A stretch of 64,000 nucleotides of DNA, from NCBI GenBank assembly GCA_037576195.1, contig CM075102.1:28578745-28642744 (forward strand). The letters are read 5' to 3'. The position numbers and the translations under genes were made by a program. A model generated the notes under the pieces. The model did not search any database. It worked only from the letters and a program-made list of their open reading frames with translations, and was not told the DNA's origin. Every line of letters starts with the position of its first letter. The stretch's first letter is position 1. Source of the DNA: Phytoseiulus persimilis (lineage: Eukaryota; Arthropoda; Arachnida; Mesostigmata; Phytoseiidae). Of this stretch, positions 3,001 to 63,950 are shown one piece after another.

Positions 3001-4150
3001 GGTTAGAAGCCGGCGAGCGATCCGAGTTAAATCTCGCTACCGCCGTTCAACCTCTCCCTAACCCCCTCACGGTGATGGGAAGCAGGCGGGGTAATCGTTC
3101 CATGTCTGCAGGATAGCGCGCCCGACTCCTTCCAACAGCGCTGCCCTTGGCCGCCGTATCTGAACTAATGAATCTTCGCTGCTCGGCGCGGAGGCGTTCT
3201 CTCCACAATCATAGTGTTTGACGCGAATCGGTCAGAGTCCCTCGAGACAGCAGTAAGATCACGACCGAGGGATTCACTCCACCGACCGGCAACGCGGATG
3301 CACCCTCTCGTTTGTTGCGATCTGTGGCTCTCGTCCCACCGCTCAGACTGGACACGCGTTCGCGTCTCCACGTGAATGCGCGCTCCGACGGCGTCCGCAT
3401 GCCTCCATCTTCCCGCTGCCCACCAACGAGGGAACGTGTGGGCAAGGCCGAGTGACAGGTGAGAGCAACCGTTGCGCGAGATGAACTCAGCACGAGGGAG
3501 CAACGCACAGTCTGTTATCGTCAGTGTTCATAAGCTAACAGACGGCAGCACGACTGTGGGCACGCTGGTGGCTCAGCGAGCTGGCTTGCGGCGGCACCCA
3601 GAGAGACGAGGGGCCGGTTGACAGCAAGTGGCGCAGCCATCTTGTTGAGTAGCCGTGAGCTGAATCAGCTCATCATTGAGTTTCGAACCCACCGCTAACT
3701 AATCCAATAGGCACAAATAGGCTTGTTGGCTGGCGGGCTCGCCGACTAGCTAGCTGGGTGGCTTGCGAGAGTGGATACAAGCAACTTTTTGTTGCCCAAC
3801 TTTTTCTCTAGGCGCCGACTTGCGAAGCTTAGCCTCACCTCGGTCTCGCAAACTCGATCTACGGTCAGAAGACAAGCGCCAAACGGTTCCGTCTTACAGC
3901 GAGAAGTCTGATCACAGAGTGGGCTCAACAATGATAGAGGTCGCGTAACGGAGACAGGGGAACAAGGACTGAGAGCGGGTGTAATTTTTTTCACCGCTCT
4001 CATATCTTATCGTTCCAAGCCTCTCGTCCCCTATCTCAGCTAAATCCCTCCTTCCTCCCGGCGGCGTATGTTCAGCTCCGGCGCAGAATGACCCGCACAG
4101 AGGTGGCAGCGGCGACGGCAACGATGGTTGTCACGATAACTTTCAAGCGT
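1..4150. other. Region without a recognised gene
   Basis: Holds the C12 tract at 2127 and overlapping chance ORFs on both strands (for example 2061-2693 minus). No splice-consistent exon, RNA gene or mobile element was seen. Confidence 0.5.
2127..2138. repeat. Mononucleotide C12 tract
   Basis: Twelve consecutive C, read directly. Confidence 0.95.
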
Positions 4151-4152
4151 CA

Positions 4153-4626
4153 TCAATTTTCCGCTTTGTGCATACTAAGTGCTGAAGTGCTGACGCCCTT
4201 CTTACACTGGCTGTCTGCTGCTGCCGGCTGTCTGGCCGGAGAGCCGACCGAGCATGCGTTCGGTCTAGCGGCGATTCTCGTTCTCGGTCGCCGCGTGCTT
4301 CGCCTGTCGAGATGCCATTTGTCCGCCTTCCCCGGCACTGCCTCGTGGAAATCTCTGTGGCGAACGTTCCAGAGATGGAAGACGGGAATCGGGGGAGGTT
4401 CGAGCTTCTGACGAAGATCGGTAACGAGTGATGAGTCTGAGCCCGGCGAGAAAGACAACGGTTTTCCTTGATCGGACCTTGGGAAATTGTTGCCGGTTCT
4501 TTCCTCGATCAGTGCTCGTAGACGTAGAGGATGTCGTCTAGGATGTGGTACAGCTTGGTTATTGGGCAAGTTGTTACCGTCGTTATTGTTGCACTCTCCC
4601 TCCGGGGCGCTCCGTATCAGACACAT
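4153..4626 (-). CDS. ORF of 157 codons with Asn-rich N-terminus, unidentified
   Basis: ATG at 4626 opens 157 codons to a stop at 4153. Residues 12-23 are Asn-rich (from GTT/ATT triplets on the plus strand), and the rest is Arg/Pro/Ser-rich with a segment PPPIPVFHLW. A GTAAGA donor lies near the 3' end. The low-complexity start and the open plus strand over the same bases make this doubtful. Confidence 0.15.
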   Translation of the reverse strand: MCLIRSAPEGECNNNDGNNLPNNQAVPHPRRHPLRLRALIEERTGNNFPRSDQGKPLSFSPGSDSSLVTDLRQKLEPPPIPVFHLWNVRHRDFHEAVPGKADKWHLDRRSTRRPRTRIAARPNACSVGSPARQPAAADSQCKKGVSTSALSMHKAEN

Positions 4627-6499
4627 TCCCGAACGTGGTCACAACCATGAGAACCACGACAATTAATACGGTCAAAGCGATGGTAAAACTCAATCTACCG
4701 TTGCTGCTACTTCTTCCTCATCGTTCTACTTATGATCTTCGCGCATTGTCCCGGTTTCGGTGGAGTCTGTGGTGACATTGACGGTAGTGATTGCGGCGAC
4801 GGGATGACCAACAGCGACCTTCGACGGAACGAGGTGACGGGATCAAGAATCGGCGGAAGCCTACCGGGTTGCTCGAGGATGCGTTATCTATTTCTTTCGG
4901 TGTGTTGCTGACTTCTCGGGCAGCCCTGTGCGCATGCCGGGCCGCTTCTGCACCCACTTCAAGTGCCGCCACGCGGTCGCTTTCCGTGCTCAACTTGGCG
5001 GGACTCCAAGATCCCTCCGGGGACCGTCTTGGCCGCCATGGAGGGAAATTACTGGTGGACCGCAACGCGGATGAATCGAGCAGTCGCCTCGCTCAGACGC
5101 CGAGGCAGCATCCGAAAACGAAGAAGGTAAGCTGTTTTTGCCGATCTCTCGACCGCCAAATGAAGGAGTCGAGCGAGTTATCATCAACCGAACTACGACT
5201 GGACGCGCGACCACTGCTAAGGAGCGAACGCGGAAGACCGGAGACGGACGCACCAACCGTCGAGCGGGGCAACGGCGGACGGAACCCTACGAAGGCCCAA
5301 GGGACTGAAGTGTTGAGTGAATAGGGCAATGGATCATGCGGCAGGCAGTCAGTCCAGTCGGCCTCTCTTTCCCCAGGGTAACATCACCATAATTTCTTCA
5401 AGGAGCTCCTAAGAGCTTTCAGGATACGCTCATCCAGTCAGTCAGCCGGTCGGCAAGCGGACCGAGGAATTCGTTGCTCGACCAGACATCAAGAACACCG
5501 TTCGTCTGCTCAAGCGACTTCCGCAAGAATACGAAGCCCTTGGTGTCTCTGGTAGTGCCGCCCGCTTTCATCAAGTTTCCCCGGGAGATCAGAGGAGGGG
5601 AGGGATGACGATCAGGATTGAGCGAAGAAACGGAGCAGGGAAAAATGGTTGGAGGAACTGAGGAAGCCTCGGTGGACTCCGCCTCGGAACTTCCGAGAGC
5701 GTCCAACCAAGCGAAAAGCCGGCCTGTCGACTGCGAATAATATGATCTACCTGATCACCCTGGGAGGGTCGGGGAAAGTTGAGTAGAGAACTTGAATTTT
5801 TGGGCTTCGGCTCCCCGGATTCCTCATTTCATCTTCAGCCATCCAGTTCCTCGCTGCGTCGACCAACATCAATAGTTCTTCCAGCCTCCCCACAAACTGG
5901 GTTCATGGCGATTCAGGTTGATAAAATTCTCCCATGATCATTAGTTTCACGCGAAGGCCAGGCTTCCCTAATTTGTGATGGTAGACCATAGAGTGCTACC
6001 TCAGTTCTCTCTTTCTCCCTCTCTATGAAGAAAACAGACCCAAAAAGGCAGCGCACGTGTCCCCAGGCGACACCAGTCAGGGGTTCTGAAAGATAAGCGT
6101 ATGACTCCGGTCTCGGGTATGGACGAACTCGATAATGTATAACGACGGCGGCTATGCAATCCCACGGCGCGTTCTCGAATAGGATTCGAATCGGGTTCCT
6201 CAGAAATCGTACTGAATGGCGCCCGCGAACCAGAGACGAGCGTAGAGTGCACGACAAAACTGAGCAGCGAAACTTTCTTGTGTATGACAGCTCGATGCTG
6301 CTGATAACGAAGTTCTTGGGGGAGAAGAGAATGGCAATTACTTCTCTTATTAGCTGCGGAGCGCCGCCTGCGTCTCGCTTGTAGAAGAAAACAGTGCTCT
6401 CCGATACCCTGACGAAGGGGCAAGTGAGTTTCCCAACGTCGCACGGGGTGCACGTTTAAGGTTTCCTGCTTTCAGCTGGCCAGCGGTCGCGATGCCACT

Positions 6500-6730
6500 C
6501 CATCGCAGAACCAGCCCCTGGGCATTCGCCTACCAGCTTCTCTGTTGGGCTTAGCCAGCCGAAAACCTTCCTTGGCTCCGGAGGATAGTTTGCTGGCCGC
6601 CTGTTTGATAGGCGCAGTTGTGGGCTTGCAAGCTGGCTAGCTTCTGGGCAAGCGACCGGACAGGGTGGGTGGCTGGCCGCCCACCCGGCCGCCCAGCCGC
6701 CTGGCTACAGCTGGCCTATCGCTCTGATTG
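6500..6730. repeat. Degenerate 4-bp-periodic tract (GGCT/GGCC/CAGC)
   Basis: Repeated words such as GGCTGGC, GGGTGGGTGGC and GGCCGCCC recur with a period near four. A second tract of the same type lies at 7960-8040. Confidence 0.6.
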
Positions 6731-8919
6731 CCCTAGGGTGCCGTTGCCACAAAAGTCCATGGTGGTCGGACACAGGAAAAAGGAGTACATCGAGGAAAGA
6801 GGATAAACGAAAGGTAGCAGAAAACGGGAATGACCAGCTGGCCAACTGACCGAAAGCCGTTGCGCAGCAGAGAACGGCCTATGAGCGGCTACCGCTGCTG
6901 CTTCGCCGAACCGACCTCCGTCTCGGCTTCACAGGAGCTATTTAGCGTTCGTGTTCAACTTTTGAAGGAGAAATCCGAGCTCTCGGTGAGGTTCGTGAAT
7001 CTGCGCCGCTGATGAGTAAGTGATTGCGGATGTTTTCGAGCCCTGAACTCTGGGAATTCCGGAGTTCAGGATGCTGGAACTCGCGAGAAACTCAAACCAC
7101 CGGTCGGAAGGCAATCGGCGATCACTTCGGTAACGCGTGTGGAGGGGGGAATCCCTCGGAATGGGTGGCGAAGATAATCACAGGACCGGTTAATGTCTGC
7201 CGACATCAATTCAACACTGAAAGACAGTGTAGGGTTACATCGGGCGGGGAGCCGCGCCAATGGCTGAACTCTTATCGAGTGAGACGGCGACGAGAGCGAT
7301 TGTCGCCATGAACAGGAGAGAGGAGAAACAAAGAGAAGGAGGAACGGAGTTGCGAAAGGGCAGCGCTACAATTTCGTTCCGATAGGCCACCGAACCACGT
7401 ATGGAGAGACCGATCGTCGGGCCGATTCCGAGTTTCGAAGGACGTAGTACGCGGCCGCGCTCCCCGTTCTCCTGACTCCTCGCGCCCCGCTTCACGCTCC
7501 TCGCCTCCTGATCGAGTCTGGTTATCGCAATCGGAGTGTTCCTCACTCACATGGCGAGTTAAACAACGGTCGTCTCTCGCTGCTCTTGGGCCCTATTGAA
7601 TCGATCTCCCGCCCACAGTTGGCAGTCTCTTTCTCGCCGACAGAATACGAGCTCCGTTCTTTCCCGACGGGTCGTGCTTCGCGGCTCTAACCGGGAAAGC
7701 TGCTCTCAACGTTCCGTTGCGAACCGTATCGAACAAAATCCCCCAGTTAGATGCTCCCGTTAATTGAATGGGAGTGATAGATTATCGGGACCTCGTTATG
7801 TATCGTGGAGTCTTTGTTGTGTCACTCGACTCAGCCGAAATCAGCTCCTTGAACAACAGACAAGTCCTCGGTGAGCCTCCCGTTCCCTTGGTTTGTATGT
7901 GGACGACCTACGAACCAACAAACCGAACAAGCGGACCGTTGGAGGCACCGACCGAGGACCCGGCGGCCGCCCGGCCGGCCGGTCGGCCAGTGCTCACACT
8001 TCCACCCTCTGCGGCCGGCAGACGAGCAAGCGACCGGATAGTGAGGGCGAATGGAAATCGATGCATCGGCCTCACATTTACAAAGTCACCAGAAGAGTTC
8101 TGTTCACAGGGAATCTCCCGACTCCTTGTGATGACCGAACAAGCAGCCAAGATGGCGGAATACTGAATCAGAGTGAGTAACACCGAGCATTGCTTTTCGA
8201 TACGGCGTTCCAGCGTGCATATCTCCAAGGACTTGTGAGGGACATTCCGTGCTCGTCGAGGCGAACATCAACAAAATGCGGATCAGACAGGAATAGTTTC
8301 CCGGGTTCCATGTTCTGCCGGCGAGCTCAAAAGAAAAAAAACACCGACATCGCCATCGACTGGCTCTCGGCCTCTGACCCTCGAGTTCCGAGGACTTGGA
8401 TCGACTCGATGTACAGGTAGTTTTGAGCGGATGGTCTATTCTTGAGTGAGCGTTTCGAGGGAGGAAGGGCGACCGATCGCGACCTCTTTCGAGTGGTTTC
8501 ACAAAAAATTCAAGCGTCTGCTGATTCCCATCCTTCCCGTTCTCCGACCCAGCGACCTCGGCTGAGAGCTCAGGATAATTCAGGTCGACGACAACGGACG
8601 GCAGGCACACTCGACAATCAATGCGTCTGCCGCTTGTTTGCTCTGGAACAGACAAGCTCGCCGCGCCTAGAAAAATCGGGGGAACGCCGACGAAGGGGCA
8701 ACGAAGTGAGTTTCTGATTTTTTCGAGGCGAGTCCGTGCAGGAGACCACGAAACGATACCCTGCCCTCTCCACTCAGTTAGAGGAACGCAGCGAGATAGT
8801 CAGTCAGTCAGCTACACTTTCGGACTCGAGTATGCGGGACACGTTTTCGACACCCAATCAGTTATGCGGCTTATATCCCCGTTTCATGCTACCAACCGCC
8901 CCTGCGGCCCTCCAAGGTT

Positions 8920-8930
8920 CCCCCCCCCCC
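8920..8930. repeat. Mononucleotide C11 tract
   Basis: Eleven consecutive C, read directly. Confidence 0.95.
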
Positions 8931-11900
8931 GTTCCTTTCCTCCAGTCCCCTCACCGCTCGGTCCGAGCGTTCCTAATTGGCAAACAGTGTACCAGACTGC
9001 TCACACTCCTTGCCGTAGGGTTGAAGCCTACTGCGGATGAACGAACAACGAAAAAACAGGCGAACCCCCGATTGAGAAGTTTCATGCGATCTCTGACTGA
9101 CGGCGGCGCCTCAGAGTGAGTTATCCGACGCGGTTTTGGATCAGCGGTTGTCTCTTCTTCGAGCGATCTGAGACACAAGGGTTGATACAATAGTTCGAGA
9201 CAGGCGTTCCGCCCTCTCGTTGATTGATTCGTGACGAAACTTCCTCCGAACATTCCTTGCAATCGAATTATTCCACACCCAAGAGACCGCCTGCTTGGCT
9301 TCCCTCAGATTTTCCGTTTCCCGTCTCTTCACCGACTCGATTCGCCACCTCAAAATTCGCTATCGTCCTCCCTCGAAACCTGGTTCTCGGAAGAGAGACG
9401 AGAGCGAAGAGGAAAAACACAGAAAGAAGTCAATCGGCTTTTTGCAGTTCCGCAACGCTTCCTTCAATTTGCGTCGAGGAACGAAGCAGGCTGCGTCTTC
9501 TCCCTGGCAGGCAATGTTCCCTCTCGCCAAATGGGGAATGAGAACGCGAAGAGAGGCGAACAGGAAGGGGAGTTGTCTTGAGGAGGGAGATACGAGGACC
9601 AGGCGGACAGGAGGGAGGGCGTCTCGGAAAAAAGAAAGGAAAGAGATTTATGGAGTTTATCGCAATCTGGAATGCTATTCTCCTTTCGGCTCTCTCGTCT
9701 TCTTTCCTCACCGCCGCCGGCGGTGAACACTATTTGCCCCTCGATCCACTCGTTTGTTGGTTGCTGGATTCTCGCACACATGTACCCCTGTTCCTCCAGC
9801 CAAGAGCCAATCTCCTCCCCGTATCACCAGGAATTGGGTATCCTCTTCTCGGATGATTTTCGAACAGCACGCGAGGTCCGGTCACGTTGGGGGACTGAAG
9901 CCGAAGGTTCCCGGTTGTGTGATCTCAGAGTCAACTAATGACCTGGTAGAGGGAGGAATCGGCCAAGGCCGTCGTATCGTCGCCACAGAAAGCCTTTGGA
10001 TAGCCTCTCGGAACATCGTAGCTCATCAATCGGGCGGAAAGCGAATCAACACTCCACCGCTCAGGCAATTCATCAATCAAGAGAACCGACGAGCGAAGTC
10101 ATTCATCAGAATCACTCAATGATCAGTTGATCGATCAATCTGTGGATCGATGCAACTGTTGTTTAGTTCCTTTCCGCTTCCAGTCGAGTGTTCATCGCAC
10201 TAAGCGAAGGATTCGTTCTCCTTCGCTCGGCCGGGCCCCCTCCTTGGAGACCGGCTCAAGCAGCCGATGCGATAGCCACTCCATCTTGTTCTTGTATTGG
10301 GATGACGAGTCATTGGGGGCGAGCTGAGAGGAATCGAGAGTTCGGATGGGGTGACAGCAGAGAACAGCTTTTCTCAAACGATCGAGAGCGGCAGCAGTGG
10401 CACTAACGACAACGTACGCACCGCCGACGTCGACAACAGTGATGGCGAGGAAAGCGCCGAGCAACAAGTGCGCCGCCTCCGTGAGTCCGGTCGGCACCAT
10501 CGTTTTCGAATGTGGGCGAAAGCCCCCTCAAGATCATGTTCACAGACGATACGGTGCCTCGACCTCGCGCTTTTCTCATTTACTCCTCGACAAGCGGCAG
10601 GAAATCGTGATATCGTTGTGTCAACTTTCCTCCTAACTTCCCCATCTTCCCGAACCCAACTTGGCGCGGCTCTCATTGCTCTTGCAAAAGCAACTGAAAA
10701 GTTTCGCCCGTTCAACGGGACCTTTCAAAACTCAAGCTGTGTGCGCGTTCTTTCCCCTCCCGATCACCCTGGGAAACGGCCTGGAGCGGAGCAGGGTTAT
10801 CGATGTTTCTTGCGTTCGTCGGTCGAGTGCAAGTGTTGGCCGTCATCTTGCGGAATAATTTTTAACTTTCACGACCGAGAGGGGATTCTTATTTCTCTTT
10901 TTCATTTAGGAGCCCCTGAAGAAACTTTTGAGGAGTCGAACAGAAGCACTTCCCCCGCTCGGTCTCGGCGAGAAAGACGGGGTAGGTCCGCGACCGGTGG
11001 AAAAAGGTCGACATAACAGACAAGGGGCGACGACGAATGGACCTGAGTGGACCAGGGCGACGTTGGTGACGGGGGACAAAAGGACGACTGGAACAGAGAC
11101 AAGTTGCAAGCGAAGATAAAAAAAAAGAGATAGAGTCAGTCCCCGTCAAACAGGCTTGTAGGTTGTTTTACTTTTTCTTTCTTATGTTCTTGTTTTTGTT
11201 CGTTTCGCGCGCTTTTCGAATGTCATAGTGGCCTTTCTCTTTTCGTTCCTTTCACTTCGAGGCAAGCCAGCGAGAGGAACAAATTTATCTTCGCTCCCCG
11301 CTACTTCGTTTCGGCTTGTTCGGTTCCGACTGCAATTTTTCTCCCGAACCCTGCTCTTTCCTCTTCCTCTGTTTCCTTCTGCTTTTGTTTTCCAGATTTT
11401 TGTGCTTTCACTTTTTACTCAGGATGCCACTTCGTCGTTTGAAACTCACGGCTGCAGTTTCGAATGGGACACCGTTCATTCTGGATGTTTCACGCAATTT
11501 CTCAGGTTGACGACGGAGGTCTTTGTTCTTTATAGCCCACGGAACCGGGTCCCGCCTGCTTTTTCCGCCACTGTTTCCTCCAAAGCGGATGAGAAGCTTT
11601 GCCTGGTGGTCTCGCAACAACGCTCCACTCTCTCGAGCATCGTCGATCAGCTCGATTCAAATATACCGCGGTTCAGAACTGTTATCTTCCTCGGGAATAT
11701 CGACTCGTTCCAGCACAGCGCCCACCGAAGACCCACCCCGCTGTTCTGGGGCAGCGTCTGCACTGCCAACGGAGCGTTCCGATTGCTGGTTCACATGTCT
11801 CCGACGATTCGTGGTACACCTCCAACTTCCCCCCACAGTCTGCCCTCGGGATCCGATTCCTGGATACGTAAAAACTGCTGGATATTCCGGTTCCTCGAGC

Positions 11901-12633
11901 CTCCGGCAGGCTTGTCGTTTCAACAACTCATTCTGGACACGGTCGGCTGAAGAAAAACGTTGGGGGAAAGTTTCAGAAGCAAGCGGATACGGAGCAGCAG
12001 AGTTTTAATAGCCGACTCGAGTCGGACCGAGCGCAGCAGGCCCACTAGGTGGATCAAATCAGAGCTGTGCTAATCCAATCAATTTGAGCTCAATAGCCAA
12101 CCGGAACTCCCAGCCGCCGCCGTTGCCTGAACATTTTTATCCACACCGTCTCTGACTTCGACAGGAGACCCATTCTCCCTCTGATAGGCTTTCCCTCCTC
12201 TCCCCGCCTCTCTTTTTTTTCCTCCCCATCTTTTTTCTTTCGCTTTCTCTCTCTCTCTCGAACAGACTAGAGCGTTGCGAGGGGAGTGCCGCATATCGGG
12301 CTTGATTCCGTCAAGAAAAGTGAGCAACAGGCGTCGGGGTCGTCGGATATCCCTCCTGGATCGAGGGAATGAAGGATTCTTGAGATCCTCGTTCATCCTC
12401 GTGCTCTATCAAGGAACATTTGGATCAATTTAAACAACTGGGAAACTACCGAAGATGAATCAGTCGAAGTTCCTCTTGGTGTTGCTCATTGTAGAGTTAT
12501 CGCCGAGAACGTATAACTTGTTGCCCACCGTCACCGACCTGCCTCTCTCCCTAATGCGCAGTCAGGCAGGCGACCGTCCAACCAAGCCATGAGAAGAAGC
12601 AGAAAGAGCAACAAGGACAATTTACGGCTACGG

Positions 12634-12897
12634 TTACATCTCGCTCGAATTACGCTCGGATCCTAGGCACGAAACCCCGCCTGATTCGTGGTGAGTCTGA
12701 GCTGGGCACCGCTCGTCACGGCACGGTCCCGCCGCCACGCGATGCCACGCAATTGCGACAACGAGAACGACAACGATGATGAGCGATAGACCCAACCGCC
12801 CGTCCGCAGAGCAGTCGTTGTCTGGCTCCCAGCGGAGAAGCTGCTCCGACGAACGCGAATCGAAGGCCCGGGACCCGCAGCAGGTGGCGACAGCCAT
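12634..12897 (-). CDS. Small ORF with one hydrophobic segment, unidentified
   Basis: ATG at 12897 (GGAGGCATGG context) opens 87 codons. Residues about 35-53 form a single membrane-like stretch (LGLSLIIVVVLVVAIAWH), followed by a Cys-containing tail. The hydrophobic stretch arises from CAACGA triplets on the opposite strand, so it may be chance. Confidence 0.15.
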   Translation of the reverse strand: MAVATCCGSRAFDSRSSEQLLRWEPDNDCSADGRLGLSLIIVVVLVVAIAWHRVAAGPCRDERCPAQTHHESGGVSCLGSERNSSEM

Positions 12898-14789
12898 GCC
12901 TCCGATTTATACGAGCTAGTCGAGAAGCTTCCAACTCAGAGTATGCGGCTCCTCCGTTTCGCTGAGATAATCCATCGGTCTGCTCAACGGTCGGCTCCCG
13001 GACACCGCGGCAGAATCCGTGCTGCGGCAGAATGAACGGCGGAGGGGCAAACATTTTGTCGCCGAGGCGGGATCGGATACCGCCACAGGAAAGCCAAAGG
13101 AAGCAGGGTTCGGACGACGGCGAGAGGGGATCCAGGGCTTGCCGTGAGGGATGTGGCGGAGAGGCTCCGTATCGATTATTTCGTCCAAATGCGATGATGG
13201 TCGTGGGCCACGCCAGCGAGCGCAGATCATTACCAGCCAGGCAGCCCGGCCGCTTCGCAGTCAGTGAGCCTGGCGGCATGCAGACATCAGGAAGGGCAAC
13301 CATTGAGCCAACCAGGCTGGCTGTGCAAAAGCTGCTCGAGCGGCTACCGGCTGTTGGGGGCTCTGGTGTATCGTCTTCTTCCATCAGGGTTTTGTTCCGT
13401 CAAAGCGGTTTCAGCGGATTCCTTTTGTCATATTTCTATTAACGCGTTTTATGCTCAGAAAGACCGTCTGAACGAAAGCCCACCCCCACCTCCCTCCCCC
13501 CGTCCCGACCGTCCAACTAACAAACGGATTGTCAGATAGACGAAACAGGCGGGCGAGCAGACGGGCGAATAAAACAACGACGTAATGGAAGCATGGCAAG
13601 ATGGATGAATGACTCCGCCCGCGGAGGATTGTGTCAACTGACCGACAATCGGGTGTACATTGAGTTCGTTTAGGTGCTCGGCTTTGCATGAGTCTTGGAC
13701 GGACGCAGTTCGCCGATCGCCACGGTCGGGAAGGGTGTTTGCGAGTCGAAGGGGCTCCTGATAACGGCGGGTTCGTTCCGTCGTTTGCGAGAGGGAGCCG
13801 CGCGGGAAGCGTGCGTGCCGGGCTGCAAGAGCTGCTTGAGTGTGAAATAGGTCAAAGCGGAACACTGCGGCCGAGAGTTTCGTACCAGAGAGTTGCGGGA
13901 GTTTTCGCCTTCTCTGACTGCGGAGGATAGATCTGCGGCGAGAGAAGCGTCGTGGGAACCGTTTGAGACGCAGAGCTCGCCAAGGAACAATCACGTCCAG
14001 CTCCGTGGTTCAGGTCGCCCTGCCTTCGAGCGCGTTCGTTCGCTCGTCTGTGAGCTCATGAAGCAGAGAGCGAAGCCAGATGTGATTTCATTAGGGCGAG
14101 AAGGCGTCTGCCCTCATCCGGTCCCTCCTTGGCGCGGCTCCTCCTCGAGCTATAGGCTACGTCAGTAGCTTATCGTTCAGGCCTTTAGTGGCCTACCCAG
14201 TTCTCTGCTTGTCACCATTTCCTCGAACAAATCGAAGCATTCCGAACAGCCGTCCGACGGAGCTCCCCGGGCTTCGAGTTCCCGTAGCGAGAGGAGGAAC
14301 CCACTAACGGGTCAGGGAGTCCGAGGACCGCCATCCGGGATGCATGCCTCAACCCCGTGTGCGCCTCTTCCGGATCTCCCATGAATGAATCGTATGAATT
14401 TTCCGCCCAGCCCACGAGAGATAACCGATGCAAACTCGATCGAGGAGCATCCCATTTGGAGACGCATCCTCTCGAGATGATGAATCTCGAGGGGGTTCCT
14501 CATCGAGGCTGCCATCGAACGATCCAGTGAATTTCGTTCAGTCGCCCTATCGTGACGAGTACGGCCACTATGCCGCAGACGGCCGTTCGAGCAGACGGAA
14601 ACGCGACTGCGTCGAGAAAAGCAGAGGGAGAAGAAGACGGAGAGGACCAGGTTATCGAGTGGGGTTGCCATTTGCATAATAATGATGATGAGGCCGGGGA
14701 CAAGTCGGGAAATGGGGAGCAGAAGAAAGTTGCAGGAAAGGAAGCCTTGCTTCATCCATTATAAAGGAATTCACGTCATTGTTTTCCCG

Positions 14790-14850
14790 AGCACGCATCC
14801 AACCAACCAACCGACCGACCAGTCAACCAGTCCGCCCGGCCGCCAGCGAC
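14790..14850. repeat. Degenerate 4-bp-periodic tract (CCAA/CCGA)
   Basis: CAACCAACCAACCGACCGACC followed by related words; an imperfect tetranucleotide microsatellite. Confidence 0.75.
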
Positions 14851-15502
14851 GTCTCCAGCAGCCAAATTCTGACAGGGCTCCGGAGGGAGAGAGAGAGAAA
14901 GGCAACGGAAGGCCGGGATCGCGAGAAGGGTGCAGGGAGGGGAAGGGGTCTATTCATTTTACATTTGCTGCAGATGATTGATTACGGGCTTCTGTTCTTA
15001 AAGTCACCACCGCCCTCCACGGTTGCTTGCAGCCGGTTGACGGCAAGCTAAAAGCGAACAGTGGGGAGTGGAGAGAGAGGTCTGCCTTGAAAAGGGACAC
15101 GGAAAAGAAGCGCGGGCCAGAGCAGGCCGAGGGAACGAAGACGAAAAGGGAATCTGTCGCTACAAAACCTCCTCTAACGGGAGCCTTGAGATAGCCTAGC
15201 GGGCAAAACAAAAACTCAGTGTGTCTCCTCTCTTCCCTCCCGGTCGCCCTCCTGGGGGATTGAGAGTTTTAAGGGATGTGTTCTTTGGAGGAGGGGCTAG
15301 ACGGACGAGGAGGAGGCCGACAACGAGCATGGGAGCGAGACTGCGGCACGGAAAAACGACGAGAGGCAACCATGGTAAGGACGGGAAGAGATGTTCGGTG
15401 AGCAGAAGTCAGTTGAGGAAGCTGGCTGGTGGAAGGATGAGGATACGACGACGCAACGAGTTTTGGGATAAGAGCCAGCCAGCCAGCCACACAGAGAGAC
15501 TT

Positions 15503-15519
15503 GGGGGGGGGGGGGGGGG
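15503..15519. repeat. Mononucleotide G17 tract
   Basis: Seventeen consecutive G just after a short AGCC/AGAG-type run. Confidence 0.95.
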
Positions 15520-16301
15520 AGCAGAGAAAGAGTTACCCTCTGAACGAAGGCCTTTTATTTCCATAAAACACAATGATAAGCAAAGCCGGCATGCTGGGGC
15601 TCTCTTTAGAGCGGCTTGAAAGCCCTGCAGGGAAACCATTAGGGGGCAATCTACGCTTTCGAGCTCAGCAGCGGCGGTAGTGGTGGCGGCACAGAGCGTT
15701 AGTCTGAAGCCCTTCATTTGTGCCGAGGATAAATGAAGTCGCGAGCAGTTCGCGAACCGGCTACTGAACTCACTGTAGCCGCTTGCCTGACTCGCTAACA
15801 TTTGCGTTCGCGACTCGAACGAGGACCGCCGGCTCGGTACATCTATCAGTAGGCCAGGAGTGGCAATCGCTGTCGCTTTCTTGTGAAGGTCATCGAGTAC
15901 CTATCTCCCGGTGACGCGGTGATCCCCAAACGAGCCGACAAAAACACGCCCGAGGTTGATTCGTCGCGGAGTTTCGCAGCTACCGAGCTTGATCGAGCCC
16001 CATATCCGGACAGAGCTGGAGGCCGTCCGACTATCGCGAGTCGAAGGAATTTATTCGCGGGTATGCTCGAGTTCAAGTTCGGTATCTCTAGGAATAGGAG
16101 TGATTCCCAGGGACTCCTCTCTGGTCCGCAGTCCGACTCCTCCGAGCTAAGTCTATCGGCCTGGAGTCAGCCTCGTTCTCTTAACTTTCCGAGGGTCTCA
16201 CGTAGATCGGGTTCTCTTGGGTGCGTTCCGCTAGCCGGAGCAGGGAGAATACTTCGGAGTCGACACTACAACGGATTGGATTCCAGATCGCGACGCAAAG
16301 C

Positions 16302-16309
16302 TATAAAAG
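16302..16309 (+). promoter_or_regulatory. TATA box candidate
   Basis: CTATAAAAGACG is followed about 25 bp later by TTTTCAAGTTACG, which could serve as an initiator. No gene was found immediately downstream; the (GA)n tract follows at 16460. Confidence 0.25.
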
Positions 16310-16456
16310 ACGCCGAGTTAATTTTCAAGTTACGCTCGGCGGGCAGCCGGCAAACGACAAAACGAACAAACAGGAGAACGCGGAAGAAGCACAACCGAGG
16401 CCGGAGCGGAGACGGCGGCGGCAACGTTGACGACGGGAGAAAGCTGTTTCGGAAAC

Positions 16457-16459
<3 letters not shown>

Positions 16460-16488
<29 letters not shown>
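16460..16488. repeat. (GA)n microsatellite
   Basis: About 14 uninterrupted GA dinucleotides. GA arrays of this kind can bind GAGA-type factors in arthropods; no such role is shown here. Confidence 0.95.
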
Positions 16489-16789
16489 CATCGTCAGTGT
16501 AAATTCCGTTCTTATTAGAACAGTTCGAGTGAAAGCCTCGAACCGAGCGGCACGAGATCGGATAGCCTGCCCCGTGCCGGAGCAGCGAAAGTCGCCTCTC
16601 GGGTTCCGCTCCGAAGCGGACGATCGTTCCGAAGAGGGACGGGTGGGCACGAGCCTGAAGATTCCGTTTGATGTTTATCATTCGACGGAATGCTAGTCAA
16701 TCGATGTGACCGCCGAGAGCAGGCACTCTCCGCGAGTTTGACGACAATCGTTGGCACAACAAAGCGAACTCTACTCTCCCGTCCCCCAG

Positions 16790-16860
16790 CATCAACCTGA
16801 TCGGTCAATCTATCTATCAATCGATCCATCCATTCGTCCGCTCATCAATCTGCGGGATGT
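16790..16860. repeat. Degenerate 4-bp-periodic tract (ATCT/ATCA/ATCC)
   Basis: CTATCTATCAATCGATCCATCC and following words keep a four-base period with drifting unit. Confidence 0.7.
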
Positions 16861-17332
16861 GTTTACTTGTGTGATCTATTCGTTTCGTGCGGCCGACTCG
16901 ACCTTTGCTCAACAGGTCGTTGGGCTGTGGTCAGGCCGAATCTTGCACGCAGCGAAGCGGTCAGCGGGACGGCCTACCTCGGAATCGATCGGTGCCATTG
17001 GTTGTTTGACTGCGTGGCCGCTGGCCCCTTCTGCCGATCTAGCGCTCCCTTCGTCTCCCCATCGACGCCGTGCCCCTCGTCGGCCTCAAGCCTTATCCGC
17101 GCACCCCAAAAAACTACTCCATGAGCTTTAGTTGATTGTTCGTGGAGATGGGCGCGCGCTCCTAGCCGCGATACGGCGGGCATCTCGCTTGCTCGATGTG
17201 TGCAGCCTGGAACTTCGCGCTTCTTCCAGGAGTTCGTACCCGTTTCCGGCTCCGAGCGATAGTGTATTGTGTGGGATACGAATGCCAGCGGCGTTTTTGA
17301 TGTTGGTGATTGCTCCTTGGCGCGGCCTCGGC

Positions 17333-17340
17333 TATAAAAG
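17333..17340 (+). promoter_or_regulatory. Strong TATA box (TATAAAAG) with initiator-like context
   Basis: GGCTATAAAAGGAGC is followed 25-30 bp later by ATTCAGGCATTCA, resembling an arthropod initiator. A C18 tract and then a micro-ORF with a donor follow. This is the best core-promoter match in the noncoding part of the window; no transcript can be assigned. Confidence 0.4.
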
Positions 17341-17377
17341 GAGCGCACTCACCAATTCAGGCATTCACCGGGTTCCG

Positions 17378-17395
17378 CCCCCCCCCCCCCCCCCC
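17378..17395. repeat. Mononucleotide C18 tract
   Basis: Eighteen consecutive C, 15 bp downstream of the start site predicted for the TATA box at 17333, so it would lie in the 5' leader. Confidence 0.95.
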
Positions 17396-17423
17396 ACTCA
17401 CTCGTCTCCTTGGTTTCGATGAT

Positions 17424-17435
17424 ATGAGCCGTTGG
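17424..17435 (+). CDS. Candidate 12-nt micro-exon (MSRW) with GTGAGT donor
   Basis: ATG AGC CGT TGG is followed directly by GTGAGT, 60 bp after the start predicted from the TATA box at 17333. The layout copies exon 1 of the glycine-rich gene (ATG plus three codons, then GTGAGT, phase 0). No downstream exon starting with a hydrophobic signal-peptide core was found, so it is a hint only. Confidence 0.22.
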
Positions 17436-17813
17436 GTGAGTCTCGAATCGCATTCGCCGCCTCCTGGCCATGCGATCTCGGAGTTTGTGGATGGGCCGCG
17501 ATCCAAATCGAGGACTGAAACTCCTCAAGCGCGTCCCCTGAGCGGTCTTGCTAGTGATTGCAACAGCAACACAGCGGCTTCTTTTCTGGTTCCATTTGGC
17601 ATCCGCCATTAAAAGTCCTTCCCTTTGTCGATGCTAAGGCTGGCTGCTCACAAACGAGCGTATCCAGGGTTAATGTCGAAGCACAGCCTCGGATACATGA
17701 ACACAGCAGCTCGCTAACCTGCCCGTCTCGACAGAGGTTTACTAGCTAGCTGTGGTTGAGTGGTTGGCTTTGAGAGAGATCCAGGCAAACAGACAAGCGC
17801 ACCACTCGCTGCC

Positions 17814-18167
17814 ATGTCGGCAGTCAGTCAGGCTGGCGGTCGCGGCAAACAGCCCGTCGGCCGGCGCACTGGCCCGGGCTCATCTATTTTTACCAGAGAA
17901 AGACTTCATCGTGGCATTCACCCGAACGCTGCTCACCAGAACAGCTTCTACCACAGGATGCTCGCTCTGTACTTCGCCCGCGGCCCGGTCCGCTCGTTCA
18001 ACAGGCTGCCGGACCTGTTGGTAGCCGGCTCGGCAAAGAGGCAGGCTCACATGGAAGAACGCTTTCGTCTAGATGCGAGCATTCGAATGAAGCAACACGT
18101 TGCTTCCGAACGAGTTGGGCAGGCATACAGCGGGAGTTGTTTTCCGCCGGTGTCACCCGAGATATGA
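17814..18167 (+). CDS. ORF of 117 codons, unidentified
   Basis: ATG in a GCCATGT context opens 117 codons to TGA at 18167. The first 25 residues are Gly/Arg-rich, and the middle reads as mixed helix-forming sequence (for example FYHRMLALYFARG and MEERFRLDASIRMK). It lies downstream of the TATA box at 17333 but no splice link was established. Length alone is not significant in this stop-poor DNA. Confidence 0.2.
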   Translation: MSAVSQAGGRGKQPVGRRTGPGSSIFTRERLHRGIHPNAAHQNSFYHRMLALYFARGPVRSFNRLPDLLVAGSAKRQAHMEERFRLDASIRMKQHVASERVGQAYSGSCFPPVSPEI

Positions 18168-20505
18168 CTCGGCACTCGCGCTGTTCGCTAGAAACTTGTC
18201 CATTATTCTTTCGAGATTGTTCACCGGTATCAGCCAGTGAATCGACTCGAGGAGATCGGAAAACTCCGTCGCTCTCCTGCTCGCGTAGTGGATTTAGAAT
18301 TCGTTCACAGACGAGTCATCGTTGGAGACGAATATGCTTCGGATGGGAAGAGCTCCGGAATAAAGCTTCACCGCCTCGAATAAAATTTTCCAGCTTGCGA
18401 GGCCTTGCCTGACTTGTTTTAGAAAGGACTCTCGTGATTCGTTCCGGAGAGCGACCGCGACGTCCCTCGATATTTGGGAAGTTCGTTCCACGACGAGCTC
18501 CATTCTGCACGGATTTACCCAGGCTCTCTCTGCGCCGGTTTCCGGGAACGAGGGCCCACCGGGTCCATCCCGCGAGAGGCGCACCCCGGATAGAATGGGA
18601 GTCTTGAACAACATCCTCGAGCTTAGACCGGTGGGGATCGACTCTCCCGCGTACGTTTTGGCCTCCCGCTCGACATGGCAGCGCGAGTTTGGGCCTGTGG
18701 CGGAGGAGTCGCAGGCCAGACGACCATCACAACGCTGCTCTGGGGGATTGGATGTGAGAGCATCTTCAGAGCAATCATTAATATTTTGCCAGATTCGCCC
18801 GATTGGCACTTCGCACCCCGTTGGAGGGATGCGAAGAGCTCGATCCAAAAGTCTCCATTGGAGAAATAAAATAGCGGACCGGGATTCAGCTGTTGGATGT
18901 TGTGAGCTCATGTTTGGCTGTGCCGGATACCTTGACCAAATTGTTCACAGCTAATGAACAAAGGTCTGGTGATCGTGACAGTGTTACAGTCGAGAGAGCC
19001 ATGCCACACCGAGCCACGACATAGTCACACGCCGGTGTCGTTTATCGATATCATCCGAAATAACATTGCGGAGCAGCAAAGTCGACTCCTCGGGCGGGGA
19101 GTAGTTTTTTTTTTACGCTGGATCTCTCTCCTGCCGGCCTCATCTATCCGTCTCCTTGACCGTCCTGTCGGCCATCTATCGTGTCGTCATTCATCCGTTG
19201 CTTCGCTCGATCTGATCGAGGCGAGGGCCGAAAAGAAGATCCATACGAACGAGCACAGACGAAAACTATAGAAAAAGGTAGCCGGCAAGAATAGCAGAGA
19301 AAGAGATGCTTTCTCCTAAGCCGGTGATCCTATCACGTCCGACACGTTTCTCGTCGGATTTGACTAGATACCGAAACATCGTCCTTTCCGCCGCTCTCCC
19401 CTCGCGACTGCGTTCGTCGTCGTCTCGGGCTCAGCCAACCCACCAGGCAGCGAGCCAAACCAAGCCAACACGGAACGAGATGAGGCAAGGCAAACATAGC
19501 AGAGGGCGATTCTCGTATTTCGAATGAGATTGCGAAGGAGCAGCGTTCGCGCCCACTCCGATAAAACAGCAGCGAACAATGATCACAACTGCAAAGCGGT
19601 ATAAGTGAAGCCGACGCTTTCCTCCACCGCTCCACTGAGCGAATGTATCACATCCCAAACAAAGAAAACGCCGAATTATTTCGGCTTTGACCTCCATGGA
19701 GCAGAGCTCATGAATGAGGTCAGCCTGGGATGTTCGCCCGCTCGGTGCCTTCGAGCCCGCTCTGAATATTGGAATGAGTCGTGAAGCACATTCCGGCCGG
19801 ATTGACACTCCGTTGAAGGGGCGACTACTTGACGGGGCATAGTTTCGAGCTTCAGATTTCAAACTCTGAGTTAGGGAGCGGATCGAAATCCAGGTTTTCA
19901 TGGCTGCGACGGGCCATGTCATCCAAGAACTCAACAAATCTGGAGGCGTCACGAGTCTCCTCCTCGGCATAGCTATCGTTGGGGCTCTCTGACTCCTACT
20001 TCTCGTCATCTTCTTCCTTGCTGTCACATCCACTCCTCAGGGCCGCTAGCTGGTGAGCGAGTGAGCGTGCAGGCAGACGAGCGAGTATGCAGCCAGCAGC
20101 TTCGCATAGTTTGACAATTATCCCCGCTCGGACGCCTTGTGCCGCCATGGTCGACAACGCCCTGCCATCGATGTCTCAGATCTTGCTGGTGGAGATGGTT
20201 TCGGCAGCGCCATCTCGACGAATCGAGCCAATGAGGGCACGTTGCTCGCAAACTCTTCTAGAAACGTCCAGAGCTTCCAGTCAAGCTATTAAACGAGTAA
20301 TTTGATATACATGCTCCATTCGTCCGATCCGTTATCGTTCACCAAATCCGGGAGTTCGGGTGCGCATTCTCCAGACAGTCGTGCATCCTGGGACGCCTGT
20401 GTGGGTTTAGCGATTAGCCGTATCCCGGAAACAGTGCCCGGTTCTCCGTTGAGCTCTAGTTCCCCTGAGGCAGAAGAGTCATCGGCGTCAAAAACCCGGC
20501 TCGCA
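18153..20505 (-). pseudogene. Stop-interrupted coding-like patches downstream of the SNAG exon
   Basis: On the minus strand several segments read like protein but carry isolated in-frame stops: 20289-20505, about 19852-20280 (stops TGA and TAG inside, with FVEFLDDMARRSHENL near the end), and 18153-18500 (one TAA, with LLESIHWLIPVNNLERIMD after it). They lie within what should be the first intron of the SNAG gene. They could be remains of one mobile element or of a gene copy. Because this DNA is poor in stops, part of the resemblance may be chance. Confidence 0.2.
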
Positions 20506-20602
20506 ATGCAGAACACTCATACCCGCGTACGGTTGCCTATTCACTCGCTCGCAGCACACTCGTTGAGACAGTGAAATTACAACAACATCCGGGCCCTCGG
20601 AG

Positions 20603-20698
20603 ATGGATCTGCCACAGAAGTGGGACGAGGACATTGTCCCCGCACTGAACTTCAAACGGAAGCGGCGGGAAGTACGGGACGGGATCGCACCAGCTCAA
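20603..20698 (+). CDS. Candidate small exon with donor, antisense to the SNAG gene
   Basis: ATG followed by 31 open codons (begins MDLPQKWDEDIVPALNFKRK) runs to a consensus donor GTAAGC at 20699, phase 0. The composition is protein-like. No partner exon or promoter was identified, and it overlaps the intron of the SNAG gene on the other strand. Confidence 0.2.
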
Positions 20699-21167
20699 GT
20701 AAGCGTTTTGCAATACCGCTCTCCGTACGCCCGGACGGAGCATTCTGAGAGCAAACTCGACTCGTAACTCGGTCGCTTCCTTGTTTGCCCGCGTTATTTC
20801 GGGCGAAGTCAGTGGCGCGGCTGGATTTTTTTCGATTCCGTAGTTTTCGGGAACCCAGTGCCCTCCGTCCCTCTCCCGTCTCGCCTAACCGGGACGTTCC
20901 CTATTGTTGTCTTCGTACCAAGTCCTCTTGAGCTGTCCCTTATGATCTCACCCCGTTCGCATGTGTATCTGAGCAAACCCGACCGTTTTCAACTCGACGC
21001 GCTTTCTCGAGCATAAGTATTCCTGAGCGTTCAGTAGAACCCCGTTGCAACGGGACAAAGTGGATGCGTTAATTTCAGTGAGGCTCGCTCGACGGACCCG
21101 AAAAACTTATTGAATGCGATGCTTCTTGACGAAAACCATTTCAGTGTACCTGCTGTTCGGAACTCAC

Positions 21168-21360
21168 CCGCTAATTTTTCCAATTGTGAGCTGTAGAACA
21201 ACGGTGCACAGTGGGGGGAAGGAGTAGACGATGTGTGAGGCGGCGCTGGTTCGGCTTCGGACGGACTCGACGGTGCGTCGTCGTCGATTGACCATCGCGG
21301 GCGATCGCTGTGCAACTCAGGGTCGTACTTCATTTTCTTGACGAGGAATGACCGAGGCAT
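21168..21360 (-). CDS. First coding exon of a SNAG-domain transcriptional repressor (Snail/Scratch/Gfi type)
   Basis: The exon starts at ATG 21360 in a CAACAATGC context and encodes 64 residues plus one base, ending at a consensus donor GTGAGT (phase 1, intron begins at 21167). The first nine residues are MPRSFLVKK, the SNAG motif found at the extreme N-terminus of Snail, Slug, Scratch and Gfi zinc-finger repressors, where it recruits the LSD1/CoREST corepressor. After it come a basic stretch, an acidic DDD patch (residues 26-28) and a Pro/Ser/His-rich linker (about 29-54), typical of the unstructured region before the fingers. A TATA-like box lies about 70 bp upstream. No C2H2 finger or linker (HTGEKP type) was found on the minus strand from 21 kb down to 1, so the rest of the gene lies beyond a very long intron or outside the window. 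Which SNAG family member it is cannot be told from this exon; Scratch or Snail seem likeliest. Confidence 0.85.
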
Positions 21361-21426
21361 TGTTGGACTCTGGATGGAGGGTTTCTTGGGATTTTTTCGG
21401 GTTTGTCTCTCTGTCGTCCGGAGGAA

Positions 21427-21432
21427 ATTATA
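21427..21432 (-). promoter_or_regulatory. TATA-like box of the SNAG gene
   Basis: The minus strand reads CTCTATAATTTCC here, 67 bp before the ATG at 21360. Transcription would begin about 30 bp on, near 21400, giving a 5' UTR of 40-50 nt. A CAGCTG E-box lies about 240 bp further upstream, at about 21667. Start-site position is inferred. Confidence 0.4.
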
Positions 21433-21439
21433 GAGCGCC

Positions 21440-24400
21440 GACTTTCACGTTCCGTCAAGTTCCCAATTCCACTTCAGAGCCTCGCCTCCGCTTCAGTGGC
21501 TCGCCTATGGAGTGAGTGGACTGGATGACCGGGTGATGGGAGGGAGCTCTGGTTGCTGCGTGGGTTTTCCAATCTGAGGCTTTGGACCGGAGCGGCGGCC
21601 TAATACCATTTAAATGACTCTCGCCAAACTCTTCATTTCGATAACTGGCTCAGATTTAGCCTCGCAGCAGCTGTTGCGACAGTTGGCTGGCTGGGGGGAA
21701 CGACACAGCGACGGAGACGGATTCGACAAGTTGATGATTCGGTTCCGCGGCGTGTCCAGCGTTCTCCGGGGCGTTATAGAAATACCTCGGGCGTTGAAGA
21801 CTGCTTCTGCTCCTTCGCCGAGTGCGACGCCGGAGAACAGTTTCCACCGCGCAGGGAATCGGCCGCGACGCTGACCCTCAGTGGGAAGTTGTTCTTTTGC
21901 ACGCACTCCAAGGCCCGAGTCGGTTCCTCTCGGCAGGCGAATCAGGTCTCTTCAGAAATGATGCCGAGAGAAGGCGGCCAAAGAACGGTCAGGCTCGGTC
22001 TCTTTACGGTTGACTTCGGATTCTTCCGGGCTGCGGGGTGGACGGACGGAGGGAGGGAGCCGACCGAGACTTCACTTCCGCGCGAGGGGGGCCGAGTGCG
22101 TGGGGAGGGGATGGCCGTGCGGGGTGGAAAGTCTCTTGGATGGCCAGCTCAGTGGCCCGCCGCTCGGTTGGATAGGGCTGGGAGGAAGCAAATGCCGCCG
22201 CCGCTGGCGCCGCCGCCTCACCACCACGGAAAGAGTTCGCTTGTTTCTGACGGCTGTTGGCGGAAACGTTCTCGTTCTTCGACGGTCGTCAGAGTTTTCG
22301 ACCGTTCTCAATATTGCCTTTCTGATAACTCAGTCAGTCACGCAGACGAAGCGAGGGTAGCCGACGAACATTGAGCCGTGAGAGGAGTCGTCGTCGGTGT
22401 CGCCTTCAGTTAGGAGCAAGAGCGTTGAAGAGGGTGGGCGCCGCTCTCAGTCGGCGTTGAGTCGGCGTTGAGTCGGCGTCGATAGTGAACAGGGCGGGGG
22501 GGCGAAAATGACGTCGGGACGCAACGACTGGGCGAAAAAGAGGAGGACCATCTAGAACAGTTGGAGTTCCGAGGCAGCGCGCGAGCGTCAAACGTATGGA
22601 GGAACTCTCTATGGAGAGGAATACAGGGTGTTCGACTGGGGTGGGGGGTAGTGGTGGTGGTGGCGGCGGCACTACTCAGGGAGTTGGGATCGTCGGACGC
22701 TATTGGGTTGTCACTCTCTCACGGTCCGATGCCGAGGGCATTGCCACGCGTACGACGCACGATGAAGGGACGATTGCCGCGGGCTGTCTATGACGAACTC
22801 CCATCTCGACCGTATCTCGCGGGCACCATACCCTTCAGACCAGAAGGCCACCCGGGCTGATCGTCGTCACTGCGCGTGGGCTCACGAGCGTCGAGGCTGG
22901 CTCGGTCTCCGTCCGTGCGTCCGGCCGGCTGGCCGACCGACCGCAACGACTCCCCCCGAGCCTAATGTAGTATGAATGTCGTTCCAACCTTGCCGCCCGC
23001 TTGCTCGGTTGGCTTTCCGACGACCAGATAGTCCTGCGGACTTTTTGCGCTGATAGCCGCCGCTGCACGCAGAAGGAACGACGGTGGACAATGGTCAACG
23101 GACGGATCGCGGGGAAGGGGTTGCCAGGGAGCACGCAGAGAGACAAACACTGGCATACATCCACGGGCTACGGTTCTGGGAGGATTTTCTCGCCCCTCGG
23201 CCTCGTCGACTGCTCGGATCCCCGAAAGGATGCCCAGAGGGACTTCCGAAGGGGCCACCGATGGGGTTTCCGAAGGCGAAGGATCCAGCCCGCGCTCAGC
23301 GCCTGTTTTGGGAAGCGGATATCCGTCCCGAAGCACCGAAGGATGGAGGACCGCGATGGGACGAGACGACAGCGAGCACTTGACAGCAGCAGACGCCGGA
23401 GAACACACGCCCAAACGATGCTTGCTGCAACCAGAAAAGATTCAACTACCGAGTGTACAGACTACAGTCTAGAGTCGTCGCTCGCGAGAGCTTTATTCCC
23501 AAGGCGGTAGTCGCAGGTTGGCGGTGTGTTTCACAGCAGATCGCGACCGGTGCAGTAACCGCTGAGCGGTTTGGGTTTCTGTTTTGCATCAATTCAACAG
23601 GTTCCTCCTCGGGTTGTTATCCTTCGCAACTGTTGCTGCAGATGCTGCTCGAAGAACACGGCCAGTGATCACATCTCTCTCGGAGGGAAACTCTGTCTGA
23701 ATATCTGCTCAATGCGATGCACGTTGACCGGGCTTATCCGATCGCGAAACGTTGGGATGCTGCGCGGCGCTGATCCGTAGAACTCCGTTTCCAGTATACA
23801 CAAAATCACATTGACGATAAGAAGGGATGCAAAGATCCTGAGAGCACAGCGATCGCAGTCACGATCCGTCAGAGATGAGCCGAAAATTCCGCCGCCGCAC
23901 GCTGAGGGGGCATGCAACGCAGACGATAAACACGACGCTTGCGCAGTAATCCGGTTTCACAACTCATCCCAAGGGAACAGACAACACACCACAAAACAGG
24001 TTTATCCTTCAGAGTGAAACATCCCGTTGTAGCTGGTCCTGAATTGGTATTTCGAGTGTCTTCTTCACACTTGCCTATTGTCCGACTCCGGGCAGGGACG
24101 AGTTCGGAATCCAGATACGGGTGAAAGCTACCTGACGTACAGCGGTTTTCAGAAGTCAAGTACACTTAGTACCCGGTCGCTTGATTCACAAAATGGCATC
24201 TCGTTTGTGGGGATAATGATACCGCTGGCTGATTTGTCAATAGTTGCGGTCGGATACACAGAGCTTGATGTCGTCGTTGTTGTTTTCGTTGTTCGAGTTG
24301 TGCAGAGATGAGCGGGAGGGTGACACCACTTGTTGTTGCTGTCAACGAGCCGTCGGTGGGAAACTTGTTGTTCCTGGAGCTCGAGCTCCACGTTGGACTG

Positions 24401-63131: not shown

Positions 63132-63857
63132 CTAACGACCTATGCCGAATCCCTGTCCGTATTGGTTGCCACCTTCAGCGAACTGCCCTTTGCTGAACTG
63201 ATTTCCGTAGGAGTTTTGTCCTTGTGAGGCGGACTGTCCGGATGCCTGATTCAGTCCGAACTGGGTCGATTCTCCGTATGTCTCTCGGTTTCCATAGACG
63301 TTCGACGATGACGATCCCTTGTTGTATCCGAAAGCACCTTGATTTTGGAACTGACCTGCACATTTGTAGTAAATTTGAACATTAGCTGTGCCGACTCTGT
63401 ATCTGACCCATAATAGACAGAATAACTTTCTTCATGTTCCTCCTCCAATCTAATAGAGTTACGAACCAGAAGCACCCGATCCCTGATTGAATCCTTGTTG
63501 GTAACGACCGCCGCCGTAACCCCCGCCGTAGCCACCTCCGTAACCCCCGCCGTAGCCACCACCGTGACCCCCGCCGTAGCCACCACCGTGACCCCCGCCG
63601 TAACCACCTCCGTATCCGCCACCGTGACCACCACCGTATCTGCCGCCTCCGAATCCTCCGGGACCGCCGAATCCTGGCCTCCCGAAACCTAGTCGCCTTT
63701 CTTCAACACTCTTTTCTTCGCCCTCCGCTGGAGATTCGCTAGTGACAGTTCCTGTGGGAGTTTTTTCAGCGGCTGCTGCTGCCGGAGCTACTGAACCTGA
63801 TTCAGTCTGCGGTGCCGGCGCCGCGTTCGCGAGCAGGCACAAGCCCGCCAGAACCAC
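63132..63857 (-). CDS. Secreted glycine/tyrosine-rich structural protein, copy B (exons 2 and 3)
   Basis: Exons 63467-63857 (acceptor ATCTCAG) and 63132-63355 (acceptor TGTGCAG), stop TAG. Exon 2 opens with VVLAGLCLLANAAPAP, the signal-peptide core, in the same phase 0 position as copy A. An acidic Ala/Glu stretch ends in SVEERR, followed by a long run of GGGY and GGGH tetrapeptides, then RYQQGFNQGSGASG. The last exon carries AFGYNKG, SSNVYGNRE and GNQFSKGQFAEGG, matching copy A block by block, and ends in GIGR. The donor after exon 2 is GTTCGT, a weak site, but it is at exactly the position and phase (1) of the GTGAGT donor of copy A, and no other donor keeps the frame. The first coding exon is either 63951-63968 or lies beyond the window edge. 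A likely extracellular matrix or cuticle component by composition. Confidence 0.85.
63511..63638. repeat. Coding minisatellite, 12-bp unit (GGG-Tyr/His)
   Basis: About ten units of 12 bp (plus strand roughly CCNCCGTANCCNCCGTGNCC) encode GGGY or GGGH in copy B. Copy A has only three comparable units at its equivalent position. Neighbouring units are nearly identical in sequence, so the array probably grew by slippage or unequal exchange. Confidence 0.85.
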
Positions 63858-63950
63858 CTGAGATTGCAGGATTTCCGAGAGTCAGAAAATATCACCGGTC
63901 ACAGTTATGAGAAGCAAAGAGCTGAACGAGCAACGAGAGGGACCGAGCAC

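Follow-up and report, generated by a model that had tools for sequence, protein, structure and literature searches.

A SNAG-coding exon of the mite Phytoseiulus persimilis and its probable Scratch-type zinc-finger gene across a 24.4-kb intron

A short minus-strand exon encoding the SNAG motif MPRSFLVKK almost certainly opens the coding sequence of a Scratch-type gene, a member of the Snail superfamily; the zinc fingers of this gene are predicted to lie across a 24.4-kb intron. It is found in a 64-kb stretch of DNA (the "window", C2:28578745-28642744, 55% G+C) of a 181-Mb genome comprising 127 contigs. The predicted gene runs from right to left and leaves the window at its left end (Table 1), and contig C1 carries a paralogue built on the same plan. 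What is added here is one more Scratch gene, ordinary in kind, and the family is already known.

Exon 1 and the gene model

The ATG of exon 1 occupies positions 21360-21358 and is followed by a frame of 64 codons plus one base (minus strand, 21360-21168: MPRSFLVKKMKYDPELHSDRPRWSIDDDAPSSPSEAEPAPPHTSSTPSPHCAPLFYSSQLEKLA and one further base), with the phase-1 donor GTGAGTTC directly after it. On the 5' side of the ATG, the same strand harbors a TATAAT sequence (21432-21427) and a stop codon in the frame of the exon (21447-21445). An earlier note on this DNA had described an exact SNAG motif with start codon, TATA-like box and donor, and all four are indeed present in the minus-strand sequence. 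When the entire 64 kb were searched by pattern in six frames, the SNAG string was encountered once. A promoter scan, using a bacterial and not an animal model, returned no prediction.

Once joined, the four exons form a single 1,344-base open frame coding for 447 residues and a stop. The introns measure 24,394, 644 and 543 bp, every splice site is GT-AG, and intron 1 is in phase 1. Exons 2-4 encode a Ser/Thr-rich linker and the C2H2 fingers; the joined protein contains five C2H2 strings and matches Pfam zf-C2H2 at 1.1e-30, with four stretches passing individually. Intron 1 extends 3,227 bp past base 1 of the window, up to the acceptor TTTTCGTTGCAG ahead of exon 2 (C2:28575517). The join between exons 1 and 2 is predicted from the frame, the splice sites and the paralogue, and an alternative promoter closer to the fingers could exist. 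Two alternatives had been offered in the earlier note, an intron 1 longer than 21 kb or a SNAG protein of another kind. The length of 24,394 bp in the gene model bears out the first, while the second finds no support. The regulator of neural or EMT type that the note had proposed would thus be, from its finger sequence, a SNAG zinc-finger gene of the Scratch (neural) kind.

Table 1. Coordinates of the predicted gene, of its first intron and of the intron stretches having a second copy
Feature	Position	Strand	Basis or remark
Presumed 5' UTR and core promoter (includes TATAAT)	21361..21445 (window)	(-)	sequence only, inferred; bounds presumed
Coding exon 1, predicted Scratch-type gene	21168..21360 (window)	(-)	gene model: sequence, in-frame join to exon 2, C1 paralogue
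Intron 1, part in window (21,167 of 24,394 bp)	1..21167 (window)	(-)	gene model
Exon 2	C2:28575517-28574715	(-)	gene model
Exon 3	C2:28574070-28573835	(-)	gene model
Exon 4	C2:28573291-28573180	(-)	gene model
Intron stretch with second copy	18579-18754 (window)		copy at C1:36341340; 81-88% identity across the three stretches
Intron stretch with second copy	1488-1587 (window)		copy at C2:44369997; same identity range
Intron stretch with second copy	1881-1947 (window)		copy at C2:23266528; same identity range

Zinc fingers inside and outside the window

No canonical C2H2 string is found in the six frames of the 64 kb. A looser C2H2 pattern yields isolated matches at five dispersed places, three of them on the plus and two on the minus strand, none of which looks finger-like by eye. 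Pfam analysis of the six frames, with X at stops, identified no family at cut-offs of E<=1 for two minus-strand frames of 7201-21360 and of E<=0.1 for the other 28 rows (10 + 9 + 9). Long rows can lose weak matches in such a screen, as exemplified by the frame 59544-60053, which on its own matched a glycine-rich Pfam family at E 0.009, under the cut-off of that family. The same procedure, applied as a control to the finger-coding DNA beyond the window edge (three frames in four rows, one frame being present twice), detected zf-C2H2 at 2e-16 in one frame; a second frame gave it at 2e-4, which is under the cut-off, and the third gave nothing. Within the limits of the pattern and Pfam screens, the window is truly devoid of fingers, and the lack of same-strand C2H2 fingers down to base 1, reported in the earlier note, is upheld.

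The DNA adjoining the window does contain the missing fingers. A pattern search extending 100 kb leftward from base 1 of the window reveals three C2H2 strings at C2:28574825-28573864 on the same strand, and two further fingers of the same gene are interrupted by introns. The finger exons are located 3.2-5.6 kb past base 1 of the window, on the strand of the SNAG exon. No other SNAG was found by pattern search in these 100 kb, nor any other fingers except C2HC ones, about 60 kb further and on the opposite strand. These C2HC fingers, of the MYT1/NZF type (C2:28511438-28513659, Pfam zf-C2HC 1.3e-41), point to a neighbouring neural-type regulator.

A paralogue with the same layout

At E<=0.001, exon 1 has a single other match in the genome, at C1:35413815 (60% over residues 1-42, E 5.7e-7). 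The paralogue to which it belongs (C1:35413815-35419423) encodes 346 residues in five exons and displays five C2H2 strings. It has in common with the window gene the SNAG start, the position and phase of intron 1, the start of exon 2 (the exon 1/exon 2 junction reads LEKLA/DYACASPRLY in both genes) and two finger-intron places, as well as the linker blocks PRW-I, SPSE, LEKLADYACASPRLY-P-DY, KTYH-L and ER-FFAKA. In contrast, its linker is shorter and contains one additional intron, and its intron 1 is only 4,101 bp long, versus 24,394 bp in the window gene. Since the paralogue repeats the layout, the link between the SNAG exon and the finger exons does not depend on one locus.

Between the two genes, the 11 SNAG codons accumulate seven synonymous differences and no non-synonymous one. 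The pN/pS ratio is 0.25 over 52 aligned exon-1 codons and 0.14 over 156 codons of the fingers and tail. The SNAG codon differences and the exon-1 ratio indicate that exon 1 has been kept by selection. In the 181 Mb, the codon pattern of MPRxFL[VI]KK has two occurrences, against none for the reversed control pattern: one at the window gene and one at the C1 gene. A looser SNAG codon pattern occurs four times (control, 1), the extra two places being MPKAFLIKK starts at C2:40141388 and C3:12217680, both of which adjoin Snail-type fingers. Every one of these starts (4/4) heads a Snail-superfamily gene in this genome.

Scratch or Snail

The fingers of the window gene are identical to those of the C1 paralogue at 125 of 139 positions, and to those of two further genes on C2, at 25.39 Mb and 48.42 Mb, at 123 and 115 of 139, respectively, against 79/138 and 79/139 (57%) for two Snail-type genes. 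In a finger tree of six of this genome's own genes, with no named Scratch protein among its rows and with the partial Snail-type row C3:12.2a left out, four Scratch-type and two Snail-type rows split at 100/100, the Scratch-type group being internally without resolution. When the divergent row from C1 at 18.04 Mb (81/138, long branch) is included, the Snail pair stands apart at 98/97 and the four Scratch-type rows form no fork. This divergent gene (L030, C1:18039376-18042558), Scratch- or Snail-like in its fingers, has its finger-2 intron at the Scratch place and is possibly a scratchA.

The predicted 447-residue protein possesses five fingers, the first, second and last of which are of Scratch type by the pairwise identities and the six-row tree; what counts as Scratch type was taken from PMC2688512 and from the SCRATCH-like motif that two of its near relatives in the genome carry. 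Its N-terminus is a SNAG-1 (MPRSFLVKK), a feature frequent in the Scratch family but not universal, and it contains no P-x-D-L, hence no CtBP motif (P-x-D-L-S); in PMC2688512, CtBP motifs are attributed to Snail only. The window gene displays neither Snail-type fingers nor the N-terminal CtBP motif frequent in arthropod Snail stricto sensu, whereas P-x-D-L-S is found in all three Snail-type loci of the genome (L026, L027 and L028). It has in common with Snail stricto sensu a SNAG-type start (MPKAFLIKK in two of the three loci; the search for a SNAG in the third found none), C2H2 fingers and a probable LSD1-type repression. On C3, about 9 kb separates two of these Snail-type loci, which lie on different strands, and L028 seemingly misses its first finger in the frame that was read. 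In its fingers, the window gene is of Scratch and not of Snail type.

The SCRATCH-like motif FF-x-[ST]-DGR is absent from the joined protein and, likewise, from the C1 paralogue. Among the loci examined, it is found only in the Scratch-type genes L023 (C2:25389593-25393006, at 25.39 Mb) and L033 (C2:48418981-48422115, at 48.42 Mb), in the form YDAFFISDGRS, which, after human SCRT1, is taken to be the SCRATCH domain. All five fingers of L023 are contained within one exon, and the two genome-wide codon patterns revealed no SNAG start for either gene. According to PMC2688512, the SCRATCH domain is present in most scratchB proteins and never in scratchA, it is missing in certain scratchB proteins, among them Daphnia scratch 2 and Tribolium scratch 2, and the Scratch-bearing arthropods of Table 1 in that paper each possess a single scratchA together with one or two scratchB. 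Since scratchB proteins devoid of the SCRATCH domain are thus documented there, scratchB may apply to the window gene, and a scratchB without SCRATCH domain appears to be the likelier label. The window gene would resemble the Scratch family (scratchB; Drosophila scratch and scratch-like, vertebrate SCRT1/2) by its SNAG N-terminus, its five Scratch-type fingers and its lack of a CtBP motif, and differ from most scratchB proteins by the missing SCRATCH-like motif, as the Daphnia and Tribolium proteins do.

The fingers of the window gene match 26 PDB chains at E<=1e-20, among which the sole Snail-superfamily name is SNAI1 (3w5k, 1.1e-40) and none is a Scratch. Exon 1 yields three chance-level phmmer matches to PDB chains (best YJU2, E 0.31) and no SNAG peptide, and its first 23 residues yield none, in a chain set holding no chains shorter than 20 residues and with a program that gives poor scores to short queries. 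No relative was found when the fingers were scanned against prokaryote genome contigs. In the literature, the peptide MPRSFLVKK is absent among the matches listed, and searches on mite Scratch and on phytoseiid genomes matched no paper.

Alternative readings

A 64-codon frame can occur by chance in GC-rich DNA, and the window contains 229 stop-to-stop frames of at least 100 residues. The idea that exon 1 is a chance open frame or a pseudogene relic has, however, hardly any probability in view of the exact SNAG, the strong donor, the lack of non-synonymous changes against seven synonymous ones in 11 codons, the exon-1 pN/pS of 0.25, and the MPRxFL[VI]KK pattern occurring just twice in 181 Mb, each time at a Scratch-type gene. 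As SNAG is common to Snail and Scratch, and as human Slug begins with the identical nine residues, the gene might also be a Snail stricto sensu. Its fingers nevertheless fall on the Scratch side of the 100/100 split in the six-row tree, its 447 residues contain no P-x-D-L whereas the three Snail-type loci have P-x-D-L-S, and the SNAG of two of these three loci is MPKAFLIKK and not MPRSFLVKK, which makes such an assignment very improbable.

The 24 kb separating the SNAG exon from the fingers, and a join that is predicted, would also accommodate a SNAG exon heading some other protein (of Gfi, Ovo or Insm type, or fingerless), the Scratch-type fingers being a separate gene. Yet the SNAG exon on C1 is 4.1 kb from like exons, with equal phase and an exon 2 that begins with identical residues, and the pattern search of the 100 kb to the left brings out no other SNAG, the only other fingers being C2HC ones on the opposite strand. 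According to PMC2889900, moreover, SNAG was at that time known from vertebrate Gfi only and was missing in Daphnia Gfi. This arrangement into two genes is therefore considered most unlikely, and a single Scratch-type gene spanning the long intron is by far the preferred reading.

Intron 1 and the remainder of the window

With an intron 1 of 24,394 bp, positions 1-21167 of the window would be intron of a SNAG-type zinc-finger regulator; the earlier suggestion of an intron occupying the window's left third agrees with the 21,167 bp of intron 1 that the gene model places there. No Pfam family in any frame and no Rfam match were found in the part of intron 1 within the window, and ARAGORN (bacterial setting) reported no tRNA. 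The intron is mostly single-copy: 20,000 of its 21,167 bases were searched, and only three short matches elsewhere in the genome (E<=1e-10) were returned (Table 1). Their alignments span 67 to 182 bases, the longest containing an indel, and similarity extends to several frames in two of them and to a single frame pair in the shortest. They look like short two-copy repeats and not exons. Intron 1 is thus long, largely single-copy and devoid of recognised coding sequence, which would accommodate control DNA without pointing to it. Blastn was used to compare intron 1, including its part beyond the window, as well as window 21361-45000, with intron 1 of the C1 gene and with its 10 kb upstream and its downstream DNA. 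A single 34-base match (E 0.09) was obtained, and therefore no non-coding block is common to both genes in the DNA compared.

Recognisable genes are scarce in the window as a whole: the Pfam screens brought out no family, and two glycine-rich frames are located toward the right end. These frames (minus strand, 59544-60053 and 63459-63881) have similar layouts, an alanine-rich part followed by glycine-rich repeats. No Pfam family passes its cut-off for either frame, and they probably encode a pair of secreted glycine-rich proteins.

Proposed function and significance

By analogy with its family, the protein would most likely be a DNA-binding transcriptional repressor acting in developing neurons. 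Its C2H2 fingers would select the target sites, and its N-terminal SNAG peptide, as a mimic of the H3 tail, would recruit co-repressors of the LSD1/CoREST type. In PMC12612597, SNAG is described as a mimic of the H3 tail and a recruiter of LSD1. PMC7477046 and PMC10848406 associate Scratch with neural development and, in the latter, a scratch-like gene of spider embryos is among the top markers of a differentiating-neuron cluster. The genome contains eight matches to SWIRM domains, seven of them marked above the cut-off; they may fit the presence of LSD1-type proteins but single out no LSD1, because other proteins also carry SWIRM.

A more speculative proposal, put forward as rather unlikely, is that the window gene and its C1 paralogue represent a Scratch type without SCRATCH domain, whose conserved linker blocks (PRW-I...SPSE, LEKLADYACASPRLY-P-DY, KTYH-L, ER-FFAKA) form, in addition to SNAG, a second module, so far undescribed, for repression or partner binding, and that the mostly single-copy 21 kb of intron in the window are a region of long-range neural control, which the C1 copy lost or never gained.

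The left third of the window would thereby belong to the intron of a gene for a probable neural repressor and would not be intergenic. As regards the family, the genome has four or more close Scratch-type genes, the SCRATCH-like motif being present in two and absent from two. Among them, the paralogue pair, sharing exon plan and protein but differing six-fold in the length of intron 1, may provide a test case for control elements in the long first introns of neural regulators.
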